A stretch of DNA of 64,000 bases from Nocardioides currus (GTDB lineage Bacteria > Actinomycetota > Actinomycetes > Propionibacteriales > Nocardioidaceae). The stretch lies in NCBI RefSeq assembly GCF_003057875.1, contig NZ_PYXZ01000007.1, positions 7,999 through 71,998 on the forward strand. Direction: 5' to 3'. Each line of letters starts with the position of its first letter. Position 1 is the first letter of the stretch. Below, piece by piece: positions 36,214 to 45,655 of this stretch. The notes beneath the pieces are model-generated. The model saw only the letters and a program-made list of their open reading frames with translations. It ran no database searches and was not told where the DNA came from. A program made the position numbers and the translations under genes.

Positions 36214-36274
36214 GCGGCCACTGTGGCAGCACCCGCCAACCCCTGTCACCCCACGGCCGGGTGTGGCGTCACGC

Positions 36275-36280
36275 TAGCCT
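36275..36280 (+). promoter_or_regulatory. -10 element of the cyanophycin operon
   Basis: TAGCCT stands seven bases before the ATG at 36288. Confidence 0.5.
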
Positions 36281-36287
36281 GCCTCCC

Positions 36288-37283
36288 ATGCCCTCAGCCC
36301 CCACCCGCGGACCACTGATGATCATCGGCGGTGCCGAGGACAAGCTCCGCAAGCGCACCATCCTCAAGGACTTCGTCGTCGCGAGCGGCGGCCACGACGC
36401 CCGGATCGTGGTGATCCCGACCGCCTCGTCGCTCGGCCCGGAGATCGTCGAGGTCTACGAGGCGCTGTTCACCAAGCTCGGTGCCGCGGAGGTCACGACG
36501 GCCCGTCCCGAGAGCCGCGAGGACGCCCACGACCCCGGTCTGGTCGAGCTGCTGGAGAAGGCCACCGGCATCTTCATGACCGGCGGCAACCAGCTCAAGC
36601 TGTCGGGCGCGATCTGCGGCACCCCGTTCGGGGAGGCCATCATCGACGCGCACGAGCGCGGCGCGGTCGTGGCCGGCACCTCCGCGGGCGCGAGCATCCA
36701 GTCCTCGCACATGGTCGCGTTCGGCGTCGGCGGGGCCACCCCCAAGCAGCGCATGACGCAGGTCGCGGCCGGGCTCGGGCTGGTCTCCTCGACCGTGATC
36801 GACCAGCACTTCGACCAGCGCAACCGCTACGGCCGGCTGCTGATGATCGTGGCGCAGAGCCCGCAGCTGCTGGGCATCGGCGTCGACGAGGACACCGCCG
36901 CGGTGGTCGAGGACGTCGACGGGCACGAGGTGCTGCGTGTGACCGGGCGCGGGTCGGTCACGATCTTCGACCCGGCCCGCATGGTCTCCAACGCCCACGA
37001 GGCGCGCCGCTCGGCCCCCCTGCTCGCGAGCGGCGTGATGCTGCACGTGCTGCCGGCGGGCTCGGCGTACGACCTCACCACCCGCACCCTGGTGCCCCAG
37101 GCCCACGAGGTCGACGACACCGAGGCCGCCGAGATCGCGGAGGCCGGGCGCGACCTGCGCCAGCTCGCCCGGGACATCGCCGCCAGCGACGTGTCCCCCA
37201 CCAACCTGCGCCGGCGGCTCGCCCGCAACCGGCGCCGCGTGACCCCCGATGAGACCCCGGCAAGCGATGGAGGCATGGCATGA
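36288..37283 (+). CDS. cphB: cyanophycinase
   Basis: The 331-residue product is a peptidase S51-type enzyme: GPLMIIGGAEDK, VVIPTASS, FMTGGNQLKL, and the nucleophile elbow VVAGTSAGAS with Ser132. HFDQRNRYGRL follows with the conserved His and Arg. Cyanophycinase cuts multi-L-arginyl-poly-L-aspartate into beta-Asp-Arg dipeptides. It carries a C-terminal extension of about 55 residues rich in Arg (NLRRRLARNRRR). There is no signal peptide, which fits use of an intracellular store. The stop overlaps the cphA start (ATGA). Confidence 0.93.
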   Translation: MPSAPTRGPLMIIGGAEDKLRKRTILKDFVVASGGHDARIVVIPTASSLGPEIVEVYEALFTKLGAAEVTTARPESREDAHDPGLVELLEKATGIFMTGGNQLKLSGAICGTPFGEAIIDAHERGAVVAGTSAGASIQSSHMVAFGVGGATPKQRMTQVAAGLGLVSSTVIDQHFDQRNRYGRLLMIVAQSPQLLGIGVDEDTAAVVEDVDGHEVLRVTGRGSVTIFDPARMVSNAHEARRSAPLLASGVMLHVLPAGSAYDLTTRTLVPQAHEVDDTEAAEIAEAGRDLRQLARDIAASDVSPTNLRRRLARNRRRVTPDETPASDGGMA

Positions 37284-40051
37284 GTGAGCGTCCGACTCCC
37301 GACCTGACGATCGTCGAGACGCGGGTCTACCGCGGCGCGAACGTGTGGTCGTACGACAAGTCGATCCACCTCGTCGTCGACCTCGGCTCGCTCGAGGAGT
37401 TCCCCACCAACACGCTGCCGGGCTTCACCGAGGAGCTGATCGCCATGCTCCCCGGCCTGCGTGAGCACTCCTGCTCCCGCGGTCGCCGGGGCGGGTTCGT
37501 CGAGCGGCTCAACGAGGGCACCTGGCTCGGTCACGTCGCCGAGCACGTCGCGCTCGCGCTCCAGCAGGTCGTCGGGCACGACATCCGTCGCGGCAAGACC
37601 CGGATGGTCAAGGGCCACAAGGGCCGCTACAACATCGTCTACGGCTACGTCGACGAGCAGGTCGGCATCGAGGCCGGCAAGCTCGCGATCCGACTCGTCA
37701 ACCACCTCGTCGAGGGCGACCCCGACTTCGAGTGGGAGGCCGAGCGCGACGCCTTCATCCGTCGCGCCGAGCGCACCGCCTTCGGCCCGTCGACCCAGGC
37801 GATCGTCGACGAGGCGGTCTCGCGCGACATCCCGTGGATCCGCCTCAACCAGTACTCCCTCGTCCAGCTCGGCCAGGGTGTCCACGCCAAGCGCATCCGC
37901 GCGACGATGACGTCCGAGACCTCGTCCATCGCCGTCGACATCGCCTCCGACAAGGACCTCACCACCAAGCTCCTCGGCGCGGCCGGGCTGCCCGTCCCCA
38001 AGCAGGGTTCGGTGCGTACGGCGGACGGCGCCGTCCAGGTCGCCGACCGGATCGGCTACCCCGTCGTCGTCAAGCCGCTCGACGGCAACCACGGGCGCGG
38101 CGTGTGCCTGGACCTGCGCTCCGAGGAGGACGTGCGCAACGCGTTCCCGATCGCGGCCGAGCAGTCGCGCCGCGGCGTGGTGATCGTCGAGTCGTTCGTG
38201 ACCGGCAAGGACTACCGCTGCCTGATCATCGACGGCCGGATGGTCGCGATCGCCGAGCGGGTGCCGGCCAGCGTCACCGGCGACGGCACCTCGACCGTCG
38301 AGCAGCTCGTCGACCTCACCAATGCCGACCCGCGTCGTGGTGTGGGGCACGAGAAGGTGCTGACCCGGATCAAGGTCGACGCCGCGGCGCTCGAGGTGCT
38401 CGCCGGCCAGGGCCACAGCCTGGAGTCGGTCCCCGCGGAGGGCGAGATGGTCAAGCTCGCGCTGACCGGCAACATGTCGACCGGTGGCATCTCCATCGAC
38501 CGCACCTTCGAGGCCCACCCGGAGAACATCGAGATCGCCGAGGAGGCCGCCCGCATGGTCGGCCTCGACATCGCCGGCATCGACTTCATCTGCCCCGACA
38601 TCACCGAGCCCGTCCGCGAGGCGGGCGGCGCGATCTGCGAGGTCAACGCCGCGCCCGGCTTCCGGATGCACACCCACCCGACCATCGGCGAGCCGCAGTT
38701 CATCGCCAAGCCGGTCGTCGACATGCTCTTCCCGCCGGGCGCCACCTCGCGGATCCCGATCGTGGCCGTCACCGGCACCAACGGCAAGACGACGACCAGC
38801 CGGATGATCGCGCACATCTTCAAGGGCCTCGGCCGCAAGGTCGGCATGACCTCGACCGACGGCGTCGTGATCGACGAGCGGCTGATCATCCGGGCCGACG
38901 CCTCCGGTCCGCGGTCCGCGCGGATGGTCCTGCAGAACCCCCGCGTCGACATGGCGGTCTTCGAGGTCGCCCGCGGCGGCATCCTGCGCGAGGGCCTCGG
39001 CTACGAGCGCAACGACGTCGCCGTGGTGCTCAACGTGCAGCCCGACCACCTCGGCCTGCGCGGCATCGACACCGTCGAGCAGCTCGCGGACGTCAAGGCC
39101 GTCATCGTCGAGGCCGTGCCTCGCGACGGCCACGCCGTGCTCAACGCCGACGACCCGCTGGTGCGCGAGATGCGCCGCAAGTGCTCGGGCCAGGTCGTGT
39201 GGTTCTCGATGGAGGAGCCCGGCAGCGAGGCCCGCGAGATGATCGACGCCCACTGCCGCCGCGGCGGCAAGGCGCTCGTGCTCAATCCCTCCGAGCGCGG
39301 CGAGATGATCGTGGTCAAGCACGGCCGGCGCGAGATGCAGCTGGCGTTCACCCACCTGCTGCCCGCCACCTTCGGCGGCCGCGCCCGGATGAACGTCCAG
39401 AACACGCTGGCCGCGGCCGCTGCCGCCTTCGCCGCCGGGGCCCCGCTCCACGACATCCGGCAGGGCCTGCGCACGTTCTCGACCAACTACTACCTCTCCC
39501 CCGGACGCCTCAACGAGGTCGAGGTCAACGGCGTCAACGTCATCGTCGACTACTGCCACAACGCGCCCGGCATGAGGATGCTCGGCGACTTCGTCGACCG
39601 CGTCGGCGAGTCCCTCGAGTCGTCGCACGACCTGGCCCGTCCCTCGCGGATCGGCATCATCGCCACCGCCGGCGACCGTCGTGACGAGGACATGCGCGAG
39701 CTCGGCCACATCGCTGCCCAGCACTTCGACGTCTGCATCGTGCGCGAGGACGTCGCGCTGCGCGGTCGTGAGCGCGGCGAGGTCGCCGGACTGGTCGTCG
39801 AGGGCGTACGCGCGGCGATCGCCGAGGGCGCTCGCTGCAAGCAGGTCGAGACGGTGCTCGTCGAGATCGACGCCGTACGCCACGCCATGAACCGCGCCAA
39901 CCGCGGCGACCTGCTCGTGGTCTGTGTCGACAAGCACGGCGAGGTCATGAGCGAGCTGGAGAACTGGTCCTCGCAGGCCCAGGCCGGCTCCGGCGTCAAC
40001 GAGGACCTGCCGCTCGCCGACCCCGACTTCTCCGCACCCGCAGACTCCTGA
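37280..40051 (+). CDS. cphA: cyanophycin synthetase
   Basis: The 923-residue protein has the three-domain layout: N-terminal domain (about 1-190, RGANVWSYDKSIH, AGKLAIRLVNHL), ATP-grasp domain (about 225-480, LPVPKQGSV, YPVVVKPLDGNHGRGVCLD, DYRCLIIDGRMVA, ICEVNAAPGF), and Mur-ligase domain (GTNGKTTTSRMIAHIF near 499, then NVQPDHLGLRGIDT and VDYCHNAPG). The ATP-grasp site adds Asp to the backbone and the Mur site adds Arg to its side chain. It is translated with cphB, so synthesis and breakdown are under one promoter. Confidence 0.96.
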   Translation: MSERPTPDLTIVETRVYRGANVWSYDKSIHLVVDLGSLEEFPTNTLPGFTEELIAMLPGLREHSCSRGRRGGFVERLNEGTWLGHVAEHVALALQQVVGHDIRRGKTRMVKGHKGRYNIVYGYVDEQVGIEAGKLAIRLVNHLVEGDPDFEWEAERDAFIRRAERTAFGPSTQAIVDEAVSRDIPWIRLNQYSLVQLGQGVHAKRIRATMTSETSSIAVDIASDKDLTTKLLGAAGLPVPKQGSVRTADGAVQVADRIGYPVVVKPLDGNHGRGVCLDLRSEEDVRNAFPIAAEQSRRGVVIVESFVTGKDYRCLIIDGRMVAIAERVPASVTGDGTSTVEQLVDLTNADPRRGVGHEKVLTRIKVDAAALEVLAGQGHSLESVPAEGEMVKLALTGNMSTGGISIDRTFEAHPENIEIAEEAARMVGLDIAGIDFICPDITEPVREAGGAICEVNAAPGFRMHTHPTIGEPQFIAKPVVDMLFPPGATSRIPIVAVTGTNGKTTTSRMIAHIFKGLGRKVGMTSTDGVVIDERLIIRADASGPRSARMVLQNPRVDMAVFEVARGGILREGLGYERNDVAVVLNVQPDHLGLRGIDTVEQLADVKAVIVEAVPRDGHAVLNADDPLVREMRRKCSGQVVWFSMEEPGSEAREMIDAHCRRGGKALVLNPSERGEMIVVKHGRREMQLAFTHLLPATFGGRARMNVQNTLAAAAAAFAAGAPLHDIRQGLRTFSTNYYLSPGRLNEVEVNGVNVIVDYCHNAPGMRMLGDFVDRVGESLESSHDLARPSRIGIIATAGDRRDEDMRELGHIAAQHFDVCIVREDVALRGRERGEVAGLVVEGVRAAIAEGARCKQVETVLVEIDAVRHAMNRANRGDLLVVCVDKHGEVMSELENWSSQAQAGSGVNEDLPLADPDFSAPADS

Positions 40052-40417
40052 GTGCGGATCCTCACCCTCGCCGACCTGCCGCGGCGTACCGTCGACGCGC
40101 ACCACAGCACGGGCTTCACCGTGGGCGCCTTCGGCCTGAGCGCCGACGCCCACCTCGTCGCCGTCACCCTCGCCCCGGGCGGGGTGATCGGGCGGCACCC
40201 CGCGGTGGGGCGCCAGCTGCTGGTCGTACTCTCCGGTGAGGCACAGGTCTGCGGTCACGAGGACGTCGTACGCACCATCGGAGTCGGGGAGGCGGCGGTG
40301 TGGGAACCCGGCGAGGCACACGAGACCCGCTCGGCCACCGGGATGCTCGCGATGATCGTCGAGGGCGACCTCGACATCGGTGCCCCCGGCGAGCAGGTCG
40401 ACCGCGGCGACACCTGA
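40052..40417 (+). CDS. small cupin-fold protein
   Basis: The 121-residue product has a single cupin barrel: VTLAPGGVIGRHPAVGRQLLVVLSGEAQVCGHEDVVRTIGVGEAAVWEPGEAHETRSATG. The usual metal-binding His pair is partly kept (GRHPA, GEAHET). The GTG starts directly after the cphA stop with no spacer, so it belongs to the cyanophycin operon. It could bind a breakdown product or regulate the operon, which is inference. Confidence 0.8.
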   Translation: MRILTLADLPRRTVDAHHSTGFTVGAFGLSADAHLVAVTLAPGGVIGRHPAVGRQLLVVLSGEAQVCGHEDVVRTIGVGEAAVWEPGEAHETRSATGMLAMIVEGDLDIGAPGEQVDRGDT

Positions 40418-40469: not shown

Positions 40470-41864
40470 TCAGCCCGAGTCCGCGCGCACCGTCTCGGCG
40501 CGCTCGGAGCCCGGCCGGACGACCCGCTCCCCGAGGAGCGCGACCCCGGCGGCCCCGACGAGCGAGACGAGGGCCGTCACCACGACGGCCCGGTGCCAGC
40601 CGTCGACCAGGCCCGCCGCCGTGATCGCGCCACTGGGCGCGGCGACGACCGAGACGACGGTGACGCCCAGCGCGGAGCCGAGGTAGCGGGCCGTGTTGTT
40701 GGCGCCGCTGCCCAGGCCCGCCTGGCCGGGCGGCACGCTGGCGACGCTCTCGCGGCCCATCGCCGCGTTGAGGACGCCCGTGGCGACGCCGGCCAGGAGC
40801 AGTCCGGGCACGAAGCGAGCGGCGCCGCTGCCCGTGTCGACACCGAGGACGAGCAGCTGGCCGAGACCCACGACCGCCAGGGCGACGGCCATCTGGCCGC
40901 GACCGCTCCAGTGCGCCGGGAGGCGGCGCGCGGCGACCGCGGTCACCACGCTGGGTGCCGACCACGCCAGCATCAGCCAGGCGGCCGTCGTGGCCGAGAT
41001 CCCGAGCGCGGAGCCGACGAAGCCCGAGACGTAGGACATCAGCGCGATGATGCCGGCGCCCGTCGCCAGACCGGCGACGTTGACCGCCCGGAACGCCGGA
41101 CGGGCGAAGAGGCCGAGGGCGAGCATCGGGTGGGTCGACCGACGCTCGACCACGACGAAGGCGACGAGCAGGAGCACCCCGACCACCAGGAGCAGCACGG
41201 TCACCGGGCGACCCCACCCGCCGCGGCCCTCGGTCAGGCCCGCCAGGACCGACGCGGTCCCCGTCGCGATCAGGACCACTCCCGGGACGTCGAGGCGTGC
41301 CCGCTCGGCGCTGCGCGACTCCGGGCAGCCGCGTGCCGCCGCCGCGAGGGCGAGGCCGGCGACGCCGATCAGCACGTAGACGTCGCGCCACGAGTGGAGG
41401 GAGCCCAGGTAGTTGCCCAGCAGGGGGCCGATCGCGATGCCGGCGCCGATGCTGGCGCCCCAGACTCCGGTCGCGCGGCCGCGCTCGCCCGGGTCGGGGT
41501 GGGCTGCGGCGATCATGCCCAAGCCGGCTGCGATCACGGCTGCGCCACCCGCACCGGCGACGATGCGGGACGCGACGAACGTCGTCGCGTCGTGCGACAG
41601 CGCGCCGAGGAGCGTCGCGAGGCCGAGGACGAGTGAGCCGATCACGAACCAGCGCCGCCGGCCGTAGTCGTCGGCCAGCCGCCCGGCCGTGAGCAGGAAC
41701 GCGCCGAGCCCGATGCTCATCGAGCTCAGGATCCAGGTCGCGCCGCGGTGTCCCGCACCGAGACCGGCCACCGTCTGGTTGATGTTGGCCAGCGGCGACG
41801 TGAAGGCCACGAGCACCGTGACAGTGCCCAGCGAGGCGATGGCGAGGGTGCGACGCGGCGACAC
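40470..41864 (-). CDS. MFS drug-exporter family transporter (DHA2-like)
   Basis: The 464-residue protein has about 14 membrane helices and MFS motif A as GRLADDYGRRRWF, plus motif C-like GASIGAGIAIGPLLGNYLG, both typical of proton-driven exporters. The GTG at 41864 has AAAGGA upstream. It is divergent from an HxlR regulator gene with a palindrome between them. This arrangement is usual for exporters that are induced by their own substrate. The substrate is unknown. Confidence 0.9.
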   Translation of the reverse strand: MSPRRTLAIASLGTVTVLVAFTSPLANINQTVAGLGAGHRGATWILSSMSIGLGAFLLTAGRLADDYGRRRWFVIGSLVLGLATLLGALSHDATTFVASRIVAGAGGAAVIAAGLGMIAAAHPDPGERGRATGVWGASIGAGIAIGPLLGNYLGSLHSWRDVYVLIGVAGLALAAAARGCPESRSAERARLDVPGVVLIATGTASVLAGLTEGRGGWGRPVTVLLLVVGVLLLVAFVVVERRSTHPMLALGLFARPAFRAVNVAGLATGAGIIALMSYVSGFVGSALGISATTAAWLMLAWSAPSVVTAVAARRLPAHWSGRGQMAVALAVVGLGQLLVLGVDTGSGAARFVPGLLLAGVATGVLNAAMGRESVASVPPGQAGLGSGANNTARYLGSALGVTVVSVVAAPSGAITAAGLVDGWHRAVVVTALVSLVGAAGVALLGERVVRPGSERAETVRADSG

Positions 41865-41873
41865 GGCAGGTCC

Positions 41874-41896
41874 TTTGGTTCGGTGAACAGACCAAA
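41874..41896. promoter_or_regulatory. operator candidate for HxlR between divergent genes
   Basis: TTTGGT at 41874-41879 and ACCAAA at 41891-41896 form outer arms around GTTC-GGT-GAAC (41878-41888). It covers the expected -35 region of the regulator gene and the space before the exporter gene, so a bound HxlR dimer could repress both. Confidence 0.55.
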
Positions 41897-41902
41897 TCAC
41901 GC

Positions 41903-41908
41903 TATCAT
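41903..41908 (+). promoter_or_regulatory. -10 element of the HxlR gene
   Basis: TATCAT stands six bases before the GTG at 41915, a leaderless arrangement. Confidence 0.5.
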
Positions 41909-41914
41909 GGCGTC

Positions 41915-42427
41915 GTGCCCCTCGGAACCGACTATCCACGCCAGGACTGCGGCATCGCGCGATCGCTCGAGCTCGTGGGCGAGCGCTGGACGCTGCTGAT
42001 CCTGCGCGACTGCTTCCTCGGGGTGCGCCGCTTCTCCGACTTCCAGGCCCACCTCGACGTGTCGCGGGCCGTGCTGTCCGCCCGCCTCGACGCCCTCGTC
42101 GAGCAGCGGCTGCTGCGGCGGGTCGGTGACGGCCACCCGGAGTACGAGCTGACCGCCGACGCCCTCGACCTGTGGCCGGTCCTGCTCGTGCTCGCCCAGT
42201 GGGGCGACCACCGCACCACCCCGGGTCTCCCCCGCCGTACCTTCCACCACGTCGGGTGCGGGACCCTCGGACGGGACGGCCGCTGCGACGGCTGCGACGC
42301 CTCGCCCCGCGCCGGCGATGTCGAGACGCGGCCGGGCCCGGGGGCCGACCCCACGCTGCGTGACGACCTCGTGTCCCGTGCCCTGCGGGTGCCGCACCGC
42401 CTTCTGGTGCCGCTCGCGACGCGGTGA
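41915..42427 (+). CDS. HxlR-family transcriptional regulator
   Basis: The 170-residue protein has the HxlR winged helix: DCGIARSLELVGERWTLLILRDCFLGVRRFSDFQAHL with the family cysteine, and LSARLDALVEQRLLRRV as recognition region. The C-terminal third adds a Cys-rich segment (HVGCGTLGRDGRCDGCDAS) that may bind metal. Members respond to redox or small molecules. It is divergent from the MFS exporter gene, so it most likely controls it and itself through the palindrome between them. Confidence 0.9.
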   Translation: MPLGTDYPRQDCGIARSLELVGERWTLLILRDCFLGVRRFSDFQAHLDVSRAVLSARLDALVEQRLLRRVGDGHPEYELTADALDLWPVLLVLAQWGDHRTTPGLPRRTFHHVGCGTLGRDGRCDGCDASPRAGDVETRPGPGADPTLRDDLVSRALRVPHRLLVPLATR

Positions 42428-42431
42428 CCGG

Positions 42432-44120
42432 TCAGCTCGAGGCGGCGCGCACCTTCGCCGCGAGCTCGTCGGCGCCGTCGGGCGTCCCGCCGTGCTCGCT
42501 GATCCAGTCGTACGCCGCCTGCCGCTCGGCGTGGCACATGAGCCCGACCACGTCGCCGGCCCGGGCCTGGCCGACGAGCGCCGCAAGGCACTCGACCTCG
42601 GTCGTGTATGTCTCGATGTCCGTGACCCCGACCCGGGCGGCACCGGCGCGCAGCAGCTGGTCGATCTCGTCCATGGTCCGGTTGCGGAGGTAGCGCTCCT
42701 TGTGGCCGATGGCGAGCACGTCGCTGCCCTTCGCGCCGATCTCGCCCAAGGCGTCGATCAGCTCGTCGGTGCGGTCGCCCACGGCGCCGAGCCCGAGCAG
42801 CAGGCGGGCCCCGGGGCGGCGTACGCCCTCCATGATCTCGAGCAGGGCCTCCAGCCCGGCCTCGTTGTGGGCGAGGTCCATCACCGCGGTGACGTCGCCG
42901 GGGAGCGAGAAGAAGTTCATCCGGCCCGGGTTGTGCTCCGCGTCGGGCAGGAACGACCGCAGGCCAGCGACGACGGTCTCGACGTCGATCCCGATGGCCA
43001 GCGAGGCCGACGCGGCGGCGAGGGCGTTCTCGATGTTGAAGCGGCTGAGGCCGGCCAGCGTCATCGGGACGTCGACGAGCTCCACCAGCGGCAGCGGGTC
43101 GGCCCCCGGCTTGAGCACGGTCAGCCAGCCGTCGATCACCGTCGTGGCGCGGCCGCCGGCGTTCATCACGTCGCGGATGGCGGGCGAGTCGGGATCGCGC
43201 GAGAAGACCCACGGCTGCGCCCTGATGATCGCGGTCATGGCCAGCACCCGCGGGTCGTCGCCGTTGAGGACGGCCCAGCCCTCCTTGCGGGTGATCCGCG
43301 GGACGACCGACTTCACCTCGGCGAGCTGGTCGACGGTGTCGATCCCCTGGAGCCCGAGGTGGTCGGCGGTGACGTTGGTGACGACGGAGACGTCGTTGCG
43401 CGTGAGGCCGATCCCCTTGAGGAGGATGCCGCCGCGGGCGGTCTCGGTCACGGCGAGCTGCACCTGCGGGTGGGCCAGCACGCGACCGGCGCCGCTCGGG
43501 CCGGAGTAGTCGCCGCCCTCGACGAGCTCGCCGTCGATGTAGATGCCGTCGGTGTTGGACCAGCCGACGAGCCTGCCGTCGCCCCGGGCGATGTGGGCGA
43601 TCATCCGGCTGGTCGTGGTCTTGCCGTTGGTGCCGGTGACGGCGACGACCGGGATCCTGGGCGTGATCGTCGTCGGCCGGGTGCCGGGCTCGGCCGCTGC
43701 GACCTGCTCGGCGGCCTCGCTGACCGCACCCTCGACGTCGGGGGTGGGCAGCGCGTCGAGCGCGTGGGCCACGGCGTTGCCGAGGGCCTGGGCGCGGCCG
43801 CGGTTGCGCCACGGGAAGGCCACGACCAGCTGGTTGGCATCGGAGGTGGGCCGGACCCGCACGGCCAGCCGCCGGGTCCCCGACTCGACGGCGATCGCCC
43901 GCACGAGGCGCTCCACCGCCCGCATCGCGAACCGCTGGCGGAAACCGCTGCCGGGGGCGCCGGGCCGGGTGGTGCGCAGGCCGATGCGGCGGGCGAAGCG
44001 CAGCACGGTCTCGTCCGACGCCTCGGCGATCGTGGTGATGTCGAGGGTGAGCTTGATGGCGGCCCGGGGGAAGTAGAGGTTGGGGCCTTCGAGGACGCGC
44101 AGTTCGACGAGCGAGGTCAC
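42432..44120 (-). CDS. CphA-like Mur ligase lacking the ATP-grasp domain
   Basis: The 562-residue protein begins with a segment like the CphA N-terminal domain (VLEGPNLYFPRAAIKLTLDI; NQLVVAFPWRNRGRAQALGNAVAHAL) and passes straight into a Mur-ligase domain (GTNGKTTTSRMIAHI from 163, NVTADHLGLQGIDTVDQLAEVK, NALAAASA, VMDLAHNEAG). Compared with the cphA product in this window the whole ATP-grasp domain, about 270 residues, is absent at a clean boundary. With only the site that adds Arg in CphA, it cannot make cyanophycin alone. It may modify another polymer or act with CphA. TAGGTT stands six bases before the GTG. Confidence 0.88.
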   Translation of the reverse strand: MTSLVELRVLEGPNLYFPRAAIKLTLDITTIAEASDETVLRFARRIGLRTTRPGAPGSGFRQRFAMRAVERLVRAIAVESGTRRLAVRVRPTSDANQLVVAFPWRNRGRAQALGNAVAHALDALPTPDVEGAVSEAAEQVAAAEPGTRPTTITPRIPVVAVTGTNGKTTTSRMIAHIARGDGRLVGWSNTDGIYIDGELVEGGDYSGPSGAGRVLAHPQVQLAVTETARGGILLKGIGLTRNDVSVVTNVTADHLGLQGIDTVDQLAEVKSVVPRITRKEGWAVLNGDDPRVLAMTAIIRAQPWVFSRDPDSPAIRDVMNAGGRATTVIDGWLTVLKPGADPLPLVELVDVPMTLAGLSRFNIENALAAASASLAIGIDVETVVAGLRSFLPDAEHNPGRMNFFSLPGDVTAVMDLAHNEAGLEALLEIMEGVRRPGARLLLGLGAVGDRTDELIDALGEIGAKGSDVLAIGHKERYLRNRTMDEIDQLLRAGAARVGVTDIETYTTEVECLAALVGQARAGDVVGLMCHAERQAAYDWISEHGGTPDGADELAAKVRAASS

Positions 44121-44157: not shown

Positions 44158-44928
44158 TCAGAGGCCCATCGCGTGGAAGCCGCCGTCGACGTGCACGATC
44201 TCGCCCGTGGTGGCGGGGAAGAAGTCGCTCAGCAGGGCACAGACGGCCTTGGCCGTCGGCGTGTGGTCGCTCTCGTCCCAACCGAGCGGGGCGCGGTCCT
44301 TCCACGCCGACTCGAGGTCCTCGAAGCCGGGGATCGCCTTGGCCGCGAGGGTCTTGAGCGGACCTGCCGAGACGAGGTTGCAGCGGATGCCGCTGGGGCC
44401 GAGGTCACGCGCGAGGTAGCGCGAGGTCGACTCGAGCCCGGCCTTGGCCACGCCCATCCAGTCGTACGCCGGCCACGCCGTGGTCGCGTCGAAGGTCAGG
44501 CCGACGATCGAGCTGCCCTCGGACAGCAGCGGACGGGTCGCCACGGCGAGTGACTTCAGGCTGTACGCCGAGACCTGCACCGCCTGCGCCACGTCGGCCC
44601 ACGGCCCCTCCATGAACTTGCCGCCGAGCAGGGTCTCGGGGTTGCCGTAGGCGATGGAGTGCACCACGCCGTCGAGTCCGTCGACGTGCTCGCGCACCTG
44701 GTCGGCCAGCCCGGCGAGGTGGTCCTCGTCGGTGACGTCGAGCTCGAGCACGGGCGCCTCGGCGGGAAGGCGCTTGGCGATCCGGCGGGTGATGCCGAGG
44801 GCACGGCCGAAGTTGGAGATCAGCACGGTGGCGCCCTGCTCCTGGGCGACCTTGGCCGTCGCGAAGCCGATGGAGGAGTCCATCGTCACGCCGGCCACGA
44901 GGATGCGCTTGCCGTCGAGAAGTCCCAT
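44158..44928 (-). CDS. fabI: enoyl-ACP reductase, InhA/FabI type
   Basis: The 256-residue protein is an atypical short-chain dehydrogenase: AGVTMDSSIGFATAKVAQEQGA as the NAD site, ELDVTDE, VVHSIAYG, and AYDWMGVAKAGLES with the Tyr and Lys spaced as in InhA. It reduces enoyl-ACP with NADH, the last step of each fatty-acid elongation cycle. The ATG lies one base behind the fabG stop, which is the same gene order as mabA-inhA in mycobacteria. Confidence 0.94.
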   Translation of the reverse strand: MGLLDGKRILVAGVTMDSSIGFATAKVAQEQGATVLISNFGRALGITRRIAKRLPAEAPVLELDVTDEDHLAGLADQVREHVDGLDGVVHSIAYGNPETLLGGKFMEGPWADVAQAVQVSAYSLKSLAVATRPLLSEGSSIVGLTFDATTAWPAYDWMGVAKAGLESTSRYLARDLGPSGIRCNLVSAGPLKTLAAKAIPGFEDLESAWKDRAPLGWDESDHTPTAKAVCALLSDFFPATTGEIVHVDGGFHAMGL

Positions 44929-44929
44929 G

Positions 44930-45655
44930 TCAGTGCCCCATTCCGAGTCCGCCGTCAACCGGGATGACGGCTCCAGTCACGTAGGCCGCCCCGTCGGAGG
45001 CCAACCAGGTCACGGCCGAGGCGATCTCGTCCGTCGCTGCGTAGCGCCCGAGGGGCACCTGCGCCTTGATCGTCTGCTTCTGCTCGTCGGTGAGCACGCC
45101 CGTCATGTCGGTCTCGACGAAGCCGGGAGCCACGACGTTGGTCGTGATCGAGCGCGAGCCCAGCTCTCGGGCCAGCGAGCGCGCCATACCGACCAGGCCG
45201 GCCTTCGACGCGGCGTAGTTGACCTGCCCCGCCGAGCCGAGCAGCCCCACGACCGAGGAGATGAAGATGATCCGGCCGCGCTTGAGGCGCAGCATCCCCT
45301 TGGCCGCGCGCTTGGCGAGCCGGAAGGAGCCGGTGAGGTTGGTGTCGATCACCGAGGACCAGTCCTCCTCCGACATCCGCAGGATCAGGGTGTCGTGGGT
45401 GATGCCGGCGTTGGCGACGAGGATCTCGACCGGCCCGTGGGCGGCCTCGACCTCGGCGAACGCGGCGTCGACGGCGGCCGCGTCGGTGATGTCGCACCGG
45501 ACGTCGAGCGCGCCCTCGGGCGCCCCGCCCTGCCGCGTGGTGACGGCGACGTGGTCACCGTTGGCGAGGAACGCCTCGGCGATCGCGCGGCCGATGCCGC
45601 GGTTGCCGCCGGTGACGAGGACGGATCGGGGCGCGTTCTTCGTCAGGTCGCTCAC
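44930..45655 (-). CDS. fabG: 3-oxoacyl-ACP reductase
   Basis: The 241-residue short-chain dehydrogenase has VTGGNRGIGRAIA as the NADPH site, VANAGIT, the catalytic SSVVGLLGSAGQVNYAASKAG (Ser, Tyr, Lys) and VAPGFVETDMT. It reduces 3-oxoacyl-ACP in fatty-acid synthesis and is coupled to the downstream fabI. The GTG is preceded by TAGCGT at eight bases, and a perfect palindrome lies just upstream. Confidence 0.93.
   Translation of the reverse strand: MSDLTKNAPRSVLVTGGNRGIGRAIAEAFLANGDHVAVTTRQGGAPEGALDVRCDITDAAAVDAAFAEVEAAHGPVEILVANAGITHDTLILRMSEEDWSSVIDTNLTGSFRLAKRAAKGMLRLKRGRIIFISSVVGLLGSAGQVNYAASKAGLVGMARSLARELGSRSITTNVVAPGFVETDMTGVLTDEQKQTIKAQVPLGRYAATDEIASAVTWLASDGAAYVTGAVIPVDGGLGMGH

Follow-up and report, generated by a model that had tools for sequence, protein, structure and literature searches.

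The locus raises the question of what a relative of cyanophycin synthetase (CphA) without an ATP-grasp domain could contribute beside a complete cphA gene. The window, meaning the whole stretch of DNA analysed, is 64,000 nt of Nocardioides currus (NCBI RefSeq GCF_003057875.1, contig NZ_PYXZ01000007.1, positions 7,999-71,998, forward strand); the features discussed are collected in Table 1. Cyanophycin is a nitrogen-store polymer, and the systems described so far comprise CphA1, the cyanobacterial CphA2, cyanophycinase and isoaspartyl dipeptidases. In CphA1 the G domain, which adds aspartate, alternates with the M domain, which adds arginine to the aspartate side chain, the chain lying between the N domain and Mcore (PMC9427784, PMC9262961). 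The original prediction was of a CphA paralogue missing only the ATP-grasp (G) domain, which with a single active site might edit cyanophycin, prime it or build a different polymer.

Table 1. Features of the cyanophycin locus, in window positions
Feature	Position	Strand	Basis
G-less CphA paralogue (N-M ligase), 562 aa, GTG start	42432..44120	-	ORF call, TIGR02068
Diverged CphA-type N domain, ~residues 1-127, without Cx19HxxEH peptidase site	43740..44120	-	hhalign E 8e-6; model; HxxEH 0/111
Mcore, ~residues 156-392: P-loop K167, Mg ligands T190 and E226, D253-H254, K270	42945..43655	-	Pfam PF08245; residue counts 111/111; boundary from TeCphA1 (PMC9427784)
P-loop TGTNGKTTT, residues 162-170	43611..43637	-	sequence
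Mlid, ~residues 393-545; ATP contacts R400 and H418 kept; CphA R801, D804, F816, D824, D884 replaced	42486..42944	-	Pfam PF02875
YLRNR, residues 477-481, adjoining the position aligned with the MurE DNPR selectivity motif	42678..42692	-	alignment
Complete cphA (CphA1), 923 aa, Cx19HxxEH, G and M sites intact	37280..40051	+	TIGR02068 1175 bits
cphB, cyanophycinase, 4 bp overlap with cphA start	36261..37283	+	TIGR02069 247 bits (cut-off 126.6); PF03575
Small cupin directly 3' of cphA	40052..40417	+	PF07883

The cyanophycin synthetase model TIGR02068 matched the complete CphA over profile positions 2-860 and the paralogue over the Mur part only (profile 475-854), where the score of 384 bits was below the equivalog cut-off of 850. 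As predicted, the Mur motifs are near-identical in the two proteins: the string VTGTNGKTTTSRMIAHI is the same in both and DHLGL.GIDT is common to them. Pfam matched Mur_ligase_M and Mur_ligase_C in the paralogue, and neither an ATP-grasp domain nor the N-domain family PF18921 was matched in it. When profiles built from the N regions of 111 paralogues and 87 CphAs were compared, paralogue residues 3-130 were colinear with CphA 10-149 (E = 8e-6, probability 83%). The proposal that the CphA N domain had been kept was therefore borne out by this match and by the structural model, although the domain is too diverged for PF18921. The Mur domain starts near residue 155 in the paralogue versus 491 in CphA, so that about 335 residues are absent rather than the 270 or so first estimated.

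Structure prediction of the paralogue gave an AlphaFold model with a mean pLDDT of 92.7 when 12 CphA rows were among the 52 aligned, and 90.0 with none. The CphA-free model aligned 522 of its 562 residues to TeCphA1 (7wae_A, residues 1 to 877) with Z 50.0 and rmsd 3.6. The best non-CphA Mur ligase reached Z 32.6 over 344 residues, in a comparison in which families missing from the listing are not thereby excluded. By sequence and predicted structure, the paralogue is thus a protein of N and M domains in the CphA arrangement that lacks only the G domain, in agreement with the original prediction of CphA descent and of one remaining ligase site.

That a Mur ligase of the usual cell-wall or folate type lies beside cphA by chance is scarcely credible. 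The Mur fold would allow it, and fabI, directly upstream in 74 of the 80 Nocardioidaceae loci (median gap 40 bp), makes part of the neighbourhood unrelated to cyanophycin. Against this, the best MurE model gave 97 bits on the paralogue (cut-off 476) compared with the 384 bits of TIGR02068, FolC gave 35 bits against a cut-off of 162.65, and MurC, MurD, MurE, MurF and FolC are each encoded elsewhere in the genome. On these scores and genes and on the Mur-domain tree a cell-wall or folate identity was rejected, and the grouping that would have refuted the original prediction was not seen. In that tree a branch supported at 100/99 separates the paralogues, together with three alphaproteobacterial-type proteins, from 19 CphA-like rows, which include Legionella and Deinococcus proteins. 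The tree is unrooted and leaves out the far outgroups MurC, MurD and FolC. In a first tree containing them, MurC joined the paralogues through a branch 6 units long; this was flagged by treekit and taken as long-branch attraction, and the tree was rebuilt. Rooting with MurE was uninformative, and the rows L001_MurEF and L002_MurEF are the same sequence.

A separate G-less protein was seen on a plasmid of Legionella adelaidensis (L151:5302-7170, 622 aa), with an intact CphA N domain bearing CxnHxxEH and a Mur domain. Its gene lies directly before those for a cyanophycinase and an isoaspartyl peptidase, and no CphA was annotated in the fetched stretch. Because this protein falls outside the paralogue Mur clade, the G domain seems to have been lost more than once.

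In the window, the paralogue gene lies 37 bp downstream of fabI on the same strand, and its start position is the same in orthologues. Its best matches among the species genomes were from Nocardioides, at identities of 91% and below. The fabG-fabI pair occupies 44158-45655 (-), and the ligase may be co-transcribed with these fatty-acid synthesis genes. The ends of cphA and the paralogue gene are 2.38 kb apart, which matches the predicted distance of about 2.4 kb. A gene for an MFS efflux transporter and one for a divergent HxlR-type regulator stand between them (40470-42427); since the former was found in only 9 and the latter in only 6 of the 80 Nocardioidaceae loci, the two genes are perhaps a recent insertion. 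The small cupin was present in 38 of the 80 and always on the cphA strand.

With respect to co-occurrence with cphA, genomes of Actinomycetota were surveyed in four samples, those of relatives, order, phylum and class, which overlap so that their counts are not additive; outside this phylum the survey covered plasmid records only. Of 39 relatives, 19 gave matches at E <= 1e-30, all 19 having both the paralogue and CphA, and the other 20 had neither. Among the 342 genomes of the order sample, CphA exceeded the cut-off in 110 and the paralogue was found in 109 of these, 40 from the first listing and then 69 of the remaining 70. The sole miss (G461) has a contig that ends 2 kb after cphA, and the paralogue is split into pieces in two genomes (G672, G605). 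Seven further genomes of this sample gave weak matches only (E 1e-62 to 1e-75), of a strength that elsewhere mapped to the ATP-grasp part. The phylum sample of 396 genomes held 22 with CphA over the cut-off and one with a fragment (G176), and the paralogue or pieces of it were present in 23/23; one 67% complete assembly (G272) had the paralogue alone, without CphA. In the class sample (296 genomes), 30 had CphA-type matches, 25 of them with the paralogue and five without, and the paralogue was therefore rejected as a universal companion of CphA. The association is near-strict in the sampled Actinomycetota, which supports the predicted link to cyanophycin metabolism.

The five class-sample exceptions were of two kinds. 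Two genomes (G849 and G967; loci L210 and L211) carry a single divergent CphA, which has leucine at D804 in L210 and lacks the N-domain metal site in L211. The other three (G753, G787 and G773; loci L213, L214 and L215) belong to one genus and have two full CphAs each. The second CphA of this genus forms its own long branch, with D824 changed to R, S and L and with intact G, N and M sites. A second full CphA altered at D824 is in keeping with a common requirement for a second specificity, as read from the sequences of this one genus.

Gene order was conserved in all 91 regions in which both genes were seen. Among the 80 Nocardioidaceae loci cphA was in view in 73, where it was always convergent with the paralogue gene (gap -3 to 4548 bp), and two loci of full length (L044, L079) had no cphA within 8 kb. 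The same convergent order was found in 18/18 regions from other families, orders and classes, one paralogue (L195) being placed by search coordinates as it had not been gene-called; cphB was adjacent to cphA in most of the regions. In the plasmid collection, a CphA covered 80% or more of the query in 19 of the 25 matching records, and four of these (Shinella, Roseateles and two Ruegeria) gave a second match. In the three fetched, from Shinella, Ruegeria and Roseateles, the second match is a RefSeq "Mur ligase family protein" encoded directly 3' of cphA on the same strand.

The residues of the M site were then compared with those established for CphA1. The M site of TeCphA1 comprises K499, T500, T522, E558, R731 and H748 (PMC9427784), and the M domain of SuCphA1 is inactivated by the double substitution D585A H586A (PMC9262961). 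Counterparts of all these residues were present in 111/111 paralogues; the catalytic residues counted in all 111 are K167, T190, E226, D253, H254, K270, N286, D289, N365, R400, D415, H418, N419, G448-D449-R450 and R479. The dN/dS of six paralogue pairs, a rough estimate from a simple NG86 count in GC-rich DNA, was 0.15-0.46. A pseudogene or decaying duplicate was rejected on these two results. Twenty-two invariant residues are specific to the paralogues and seven of them occur in all three alphaproteobacterial-type proteins, which argues for a specialised protein rather than a decaying one.

A different pattern was found at positions which in CphA contact the chain or may govern selectivity. 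The primer-making site Cx19HxxEH is found in 83% of CphA1s (PMC9262961); the N-domain peptidase motif CxnHxxEH was present in 83/83 CphAs examined here, versus HxxEH in 0/111 paralogues. E607, an M-domain residue of SuCphA1, touches the chain that occupies the N site (PMC9262961). The equivalent E611 was glutamate in 89/89 CphA, and among the 111 paralogues it was replaced by R (77), K (14), Q (10), H (5), W (2), T (2) or S (1). R801, D804 and F816 were each invariant in 89/89 CphA; in the paralogues R801 was mostly T (71) or Q (22) and never R, D804 was L (85), I (17), M (5) or V (4), and F816 was mostly S (63) or A (44) and never F. D824 was conserved in 87/89 CphA and replaced by K (98) or L (13), and D884 in 86/89, the paralogues having A (86), Q (10), G (5), S (4), E (3) and three others, with no D. 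Five near-invariant CphA residues at chain-contact or selectivity positions were replaced in 111/111 paralogues.

The DNPR motif of MurE selects the incoming amino acid, and D824 of CphA aligns with it. We infer that D824, D804 and D884 of CphA probably read the incoming amino acid. Next to the aligned position, Y477 of the YLRNR motif was found in 111/111 paralogues and in 3/3 of the alphaproteobacterial-type relatives, and falls in an alignment gap in CphA. Some variation was seen at these positions: the CphA of Sphingobium (L154) has A at 824 and T at 884, distant paralogues carry L at 474 in place of K, and an acid is retained at 804 in the alphaproteobacterial-type proteins. A concentration of the lost CphA invariants in the lid (5/21 versus 8/64 in the core) was unconvincing. 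The N domain carries an average charge of +7 in the actinobacterial paralogues, and this charge was dropped as a hint of an anionic chain because the sign is opposite in the alphaproteobacterial-type proteins (-10 to -15).

Taken at a probability of about 0.45, our preferred reading from sequence and model is that the paralogue serves the cyanophycin pathway as an ATP-dependent side-chain ligase with one active site, which would act in trans on an aspartate backbone and probably with a residue other than arginine. Support for the enzyme class is good, and the substrate is proposed. The protein would have arisen from CphA through loss of the G domain, the part which adds backbone aspartate, and since G is absent it would be unable to extend the backbone. 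In effect it would do the work of one half of CphA1. Because N and a complete M are present, chain binding and activation of a side-chain carboxylate would be expected. The N domain may have been retained as a chain anchor, and the M site would activate the free side-chain carboxylate of the aspartate that ends a backbone synthesised by the adjacent CphA, to which an amine could then be coupled in trans as in the M domain of CphA itself. Loss of the acidic residues disfavours arginine as the incoming residue; with less confidence, a neutral or acidic amino acid might be added instead, giving a mixed or capped polymer. Against this reading, the change at the E607 position may only follow loss of the peptidase site, because E607 touches the chain bound there. 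The variation at 824, 884, 474 and 804, the unconvincing clustering of losses in the lid, the opposite N-domain charge of the alphaproteobacterial-type proteins and the five class-sample genomes with CphA alone also count against it.

Several other functions would draw on the same evidence. A repair or finishing enzyme, placing arginine on exposed terminal or unsubstituted aspartates when the M site of CphA lags or a chain breaks, is an unlikely function but one consistent with the retained N domain, the near-strict co-occurrence with cphA, and the preserved ATP site, Mg ligands, D253-H254 and K270. R450, R479 and R481, in the region aligned with the MurE amino-acid site, are also kept. The five uniformly replaced residues and the 22 invariants peculiar to the paralogue speak against an unchanged arginine specificity. 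The changes at selectivity positions would suit synthesis of a different homopolymer or conjugate on a non-CphA acceptor, in the manner of FolC and PgsB/CapB with one Mur-type site, and in FolC one such site suffices for polyglutamylation. The strongly basic N domain of the actinobacterial members also favours such a role, but it is absent from the alphaproteobacterial-type set; moreover, the Mur domain groups with CphA, and the paralogue tracks cphA in the sampled genomes with G272 as the only case without it. We regard this polymer as improbable.

A non-catalytic partner, which would form mixed oligomers with CphA or hold chains and regulate polymerisation, appears no more probable than a different polymer. 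CphA1 forms oligomers and binds chains through its N domain (PMC9262961, PMC9427784), and the co-occurrence with cphA would be as expected, but a scaffold would not need the catalytic residues that are invariant in 111/111. Recycling, in which beta-Asp-Arg dipeptides or free aspartate released by cyanophycinase would be coupled into a new conjugate or primer, is very unlikely. It gains from cphB in the same cluster and from the gene order around the Legionella G-less relative, although that protein is outside the paralogue clade and the primer-making motif is kept in all 83 neighbouring CphAs. The latter, together with its loss from the paralogue, also weakens the priming role suggested in the original prediction, and a primer enzyme is disfavoured. 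As to its other two suggestions, editing and a different polymer, the evidence tends towards another side-chain residue on an unchanged backbone. Returning to the side-chain ligase, a broader and rather doubtful extension is that actinobacterial cyanophycin is the product of two enzymes: CphA would lay down aspartate and arginine, and the G-less ligase would put a neutral or acidic residue, perhaps glutamate, on some aspartate side chains. The polymer would then differ from plain poly(Asp-Arg) and be tunable in nitrogen content, with the second, D824-altered CphA playing the same part in the genus without the ligase. Under nitrogen limitation, Synechocystis PCC 6308 is reported to make cyanophycin in which glutamate replaces arginine (cited in PMC8560796), which makes a second specificity chemically plausible; its tie to the paralogue is speculation.

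Among known systems, CphA1 (TIGR02068; PDB 7lg5, 7lgq, 7wae) has the same N and M arrangement and shares the M-site residues for ATP, Mg and catalysis; the paralogue differs in lacking the G domain and Cx19HxxEH, and in replacement of the E607, R801, D804, F816 and D824 equivalents. CphA2, the cyanobacterial beta-Asp-Arg polymerase, likewise derives from CphA, with a single ligase site remaining and no N-domain peptidase motif (PMC9262961). It works with G, the M-domain P-loop and Mlid being absent (PMC9427784), whereas the paralogue keeps both of these and lacks G; this mirror-image relation makes the question of function directly testable. The Shinella, Ruegeria and Roseateles ligases share the Mur clade, the seven paralogue-specific invariants and the absence of G, but are co-directional with cphA and have a longer, very diverged and acidic N part. 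MurE shares the Mur ligase fold and mechanism and has its C-terminal selectivity motif at the same place, its own N domain standing where the paralogue has one of CphA type. A study of 35 Actinomycetota genomes with CphA1 found cyanophycinase and dipeptidase in all (PMC10206079), and part 1 of its Results and its Discussion make no mention of the paralogue gene. No description of a G-less CphA-type ligase was found in the literature searched, to which subscription papers on CphA2 and on the first CphA1 structures did not belong. Nearly every sampled actinobacterial CphA is accompanied by this second ligase, which curated family models do not separate. If it does add another residue, what natural cyanophycin consists of in these bacteria has been presumed and not known, and polymer engineering would gain a stand-alone module with which to alter the side chains.

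Further variants of the family were seen during the survey. Two Deinococcus plasmids encode CphA relatives with degenerate N-domain metal sites (L148:6002-8176 and L153:4678-7194), the former without most of the G domain and the latter with a degenerate one; in both, R occupies the position of SuCphA1 E607. In one family, two paralogues (L118 and L119, from G123 and G177) carry a long C-terminal extension, repeat-like (TPR-like) by eye, and the extension is shorter in L122 (G345).
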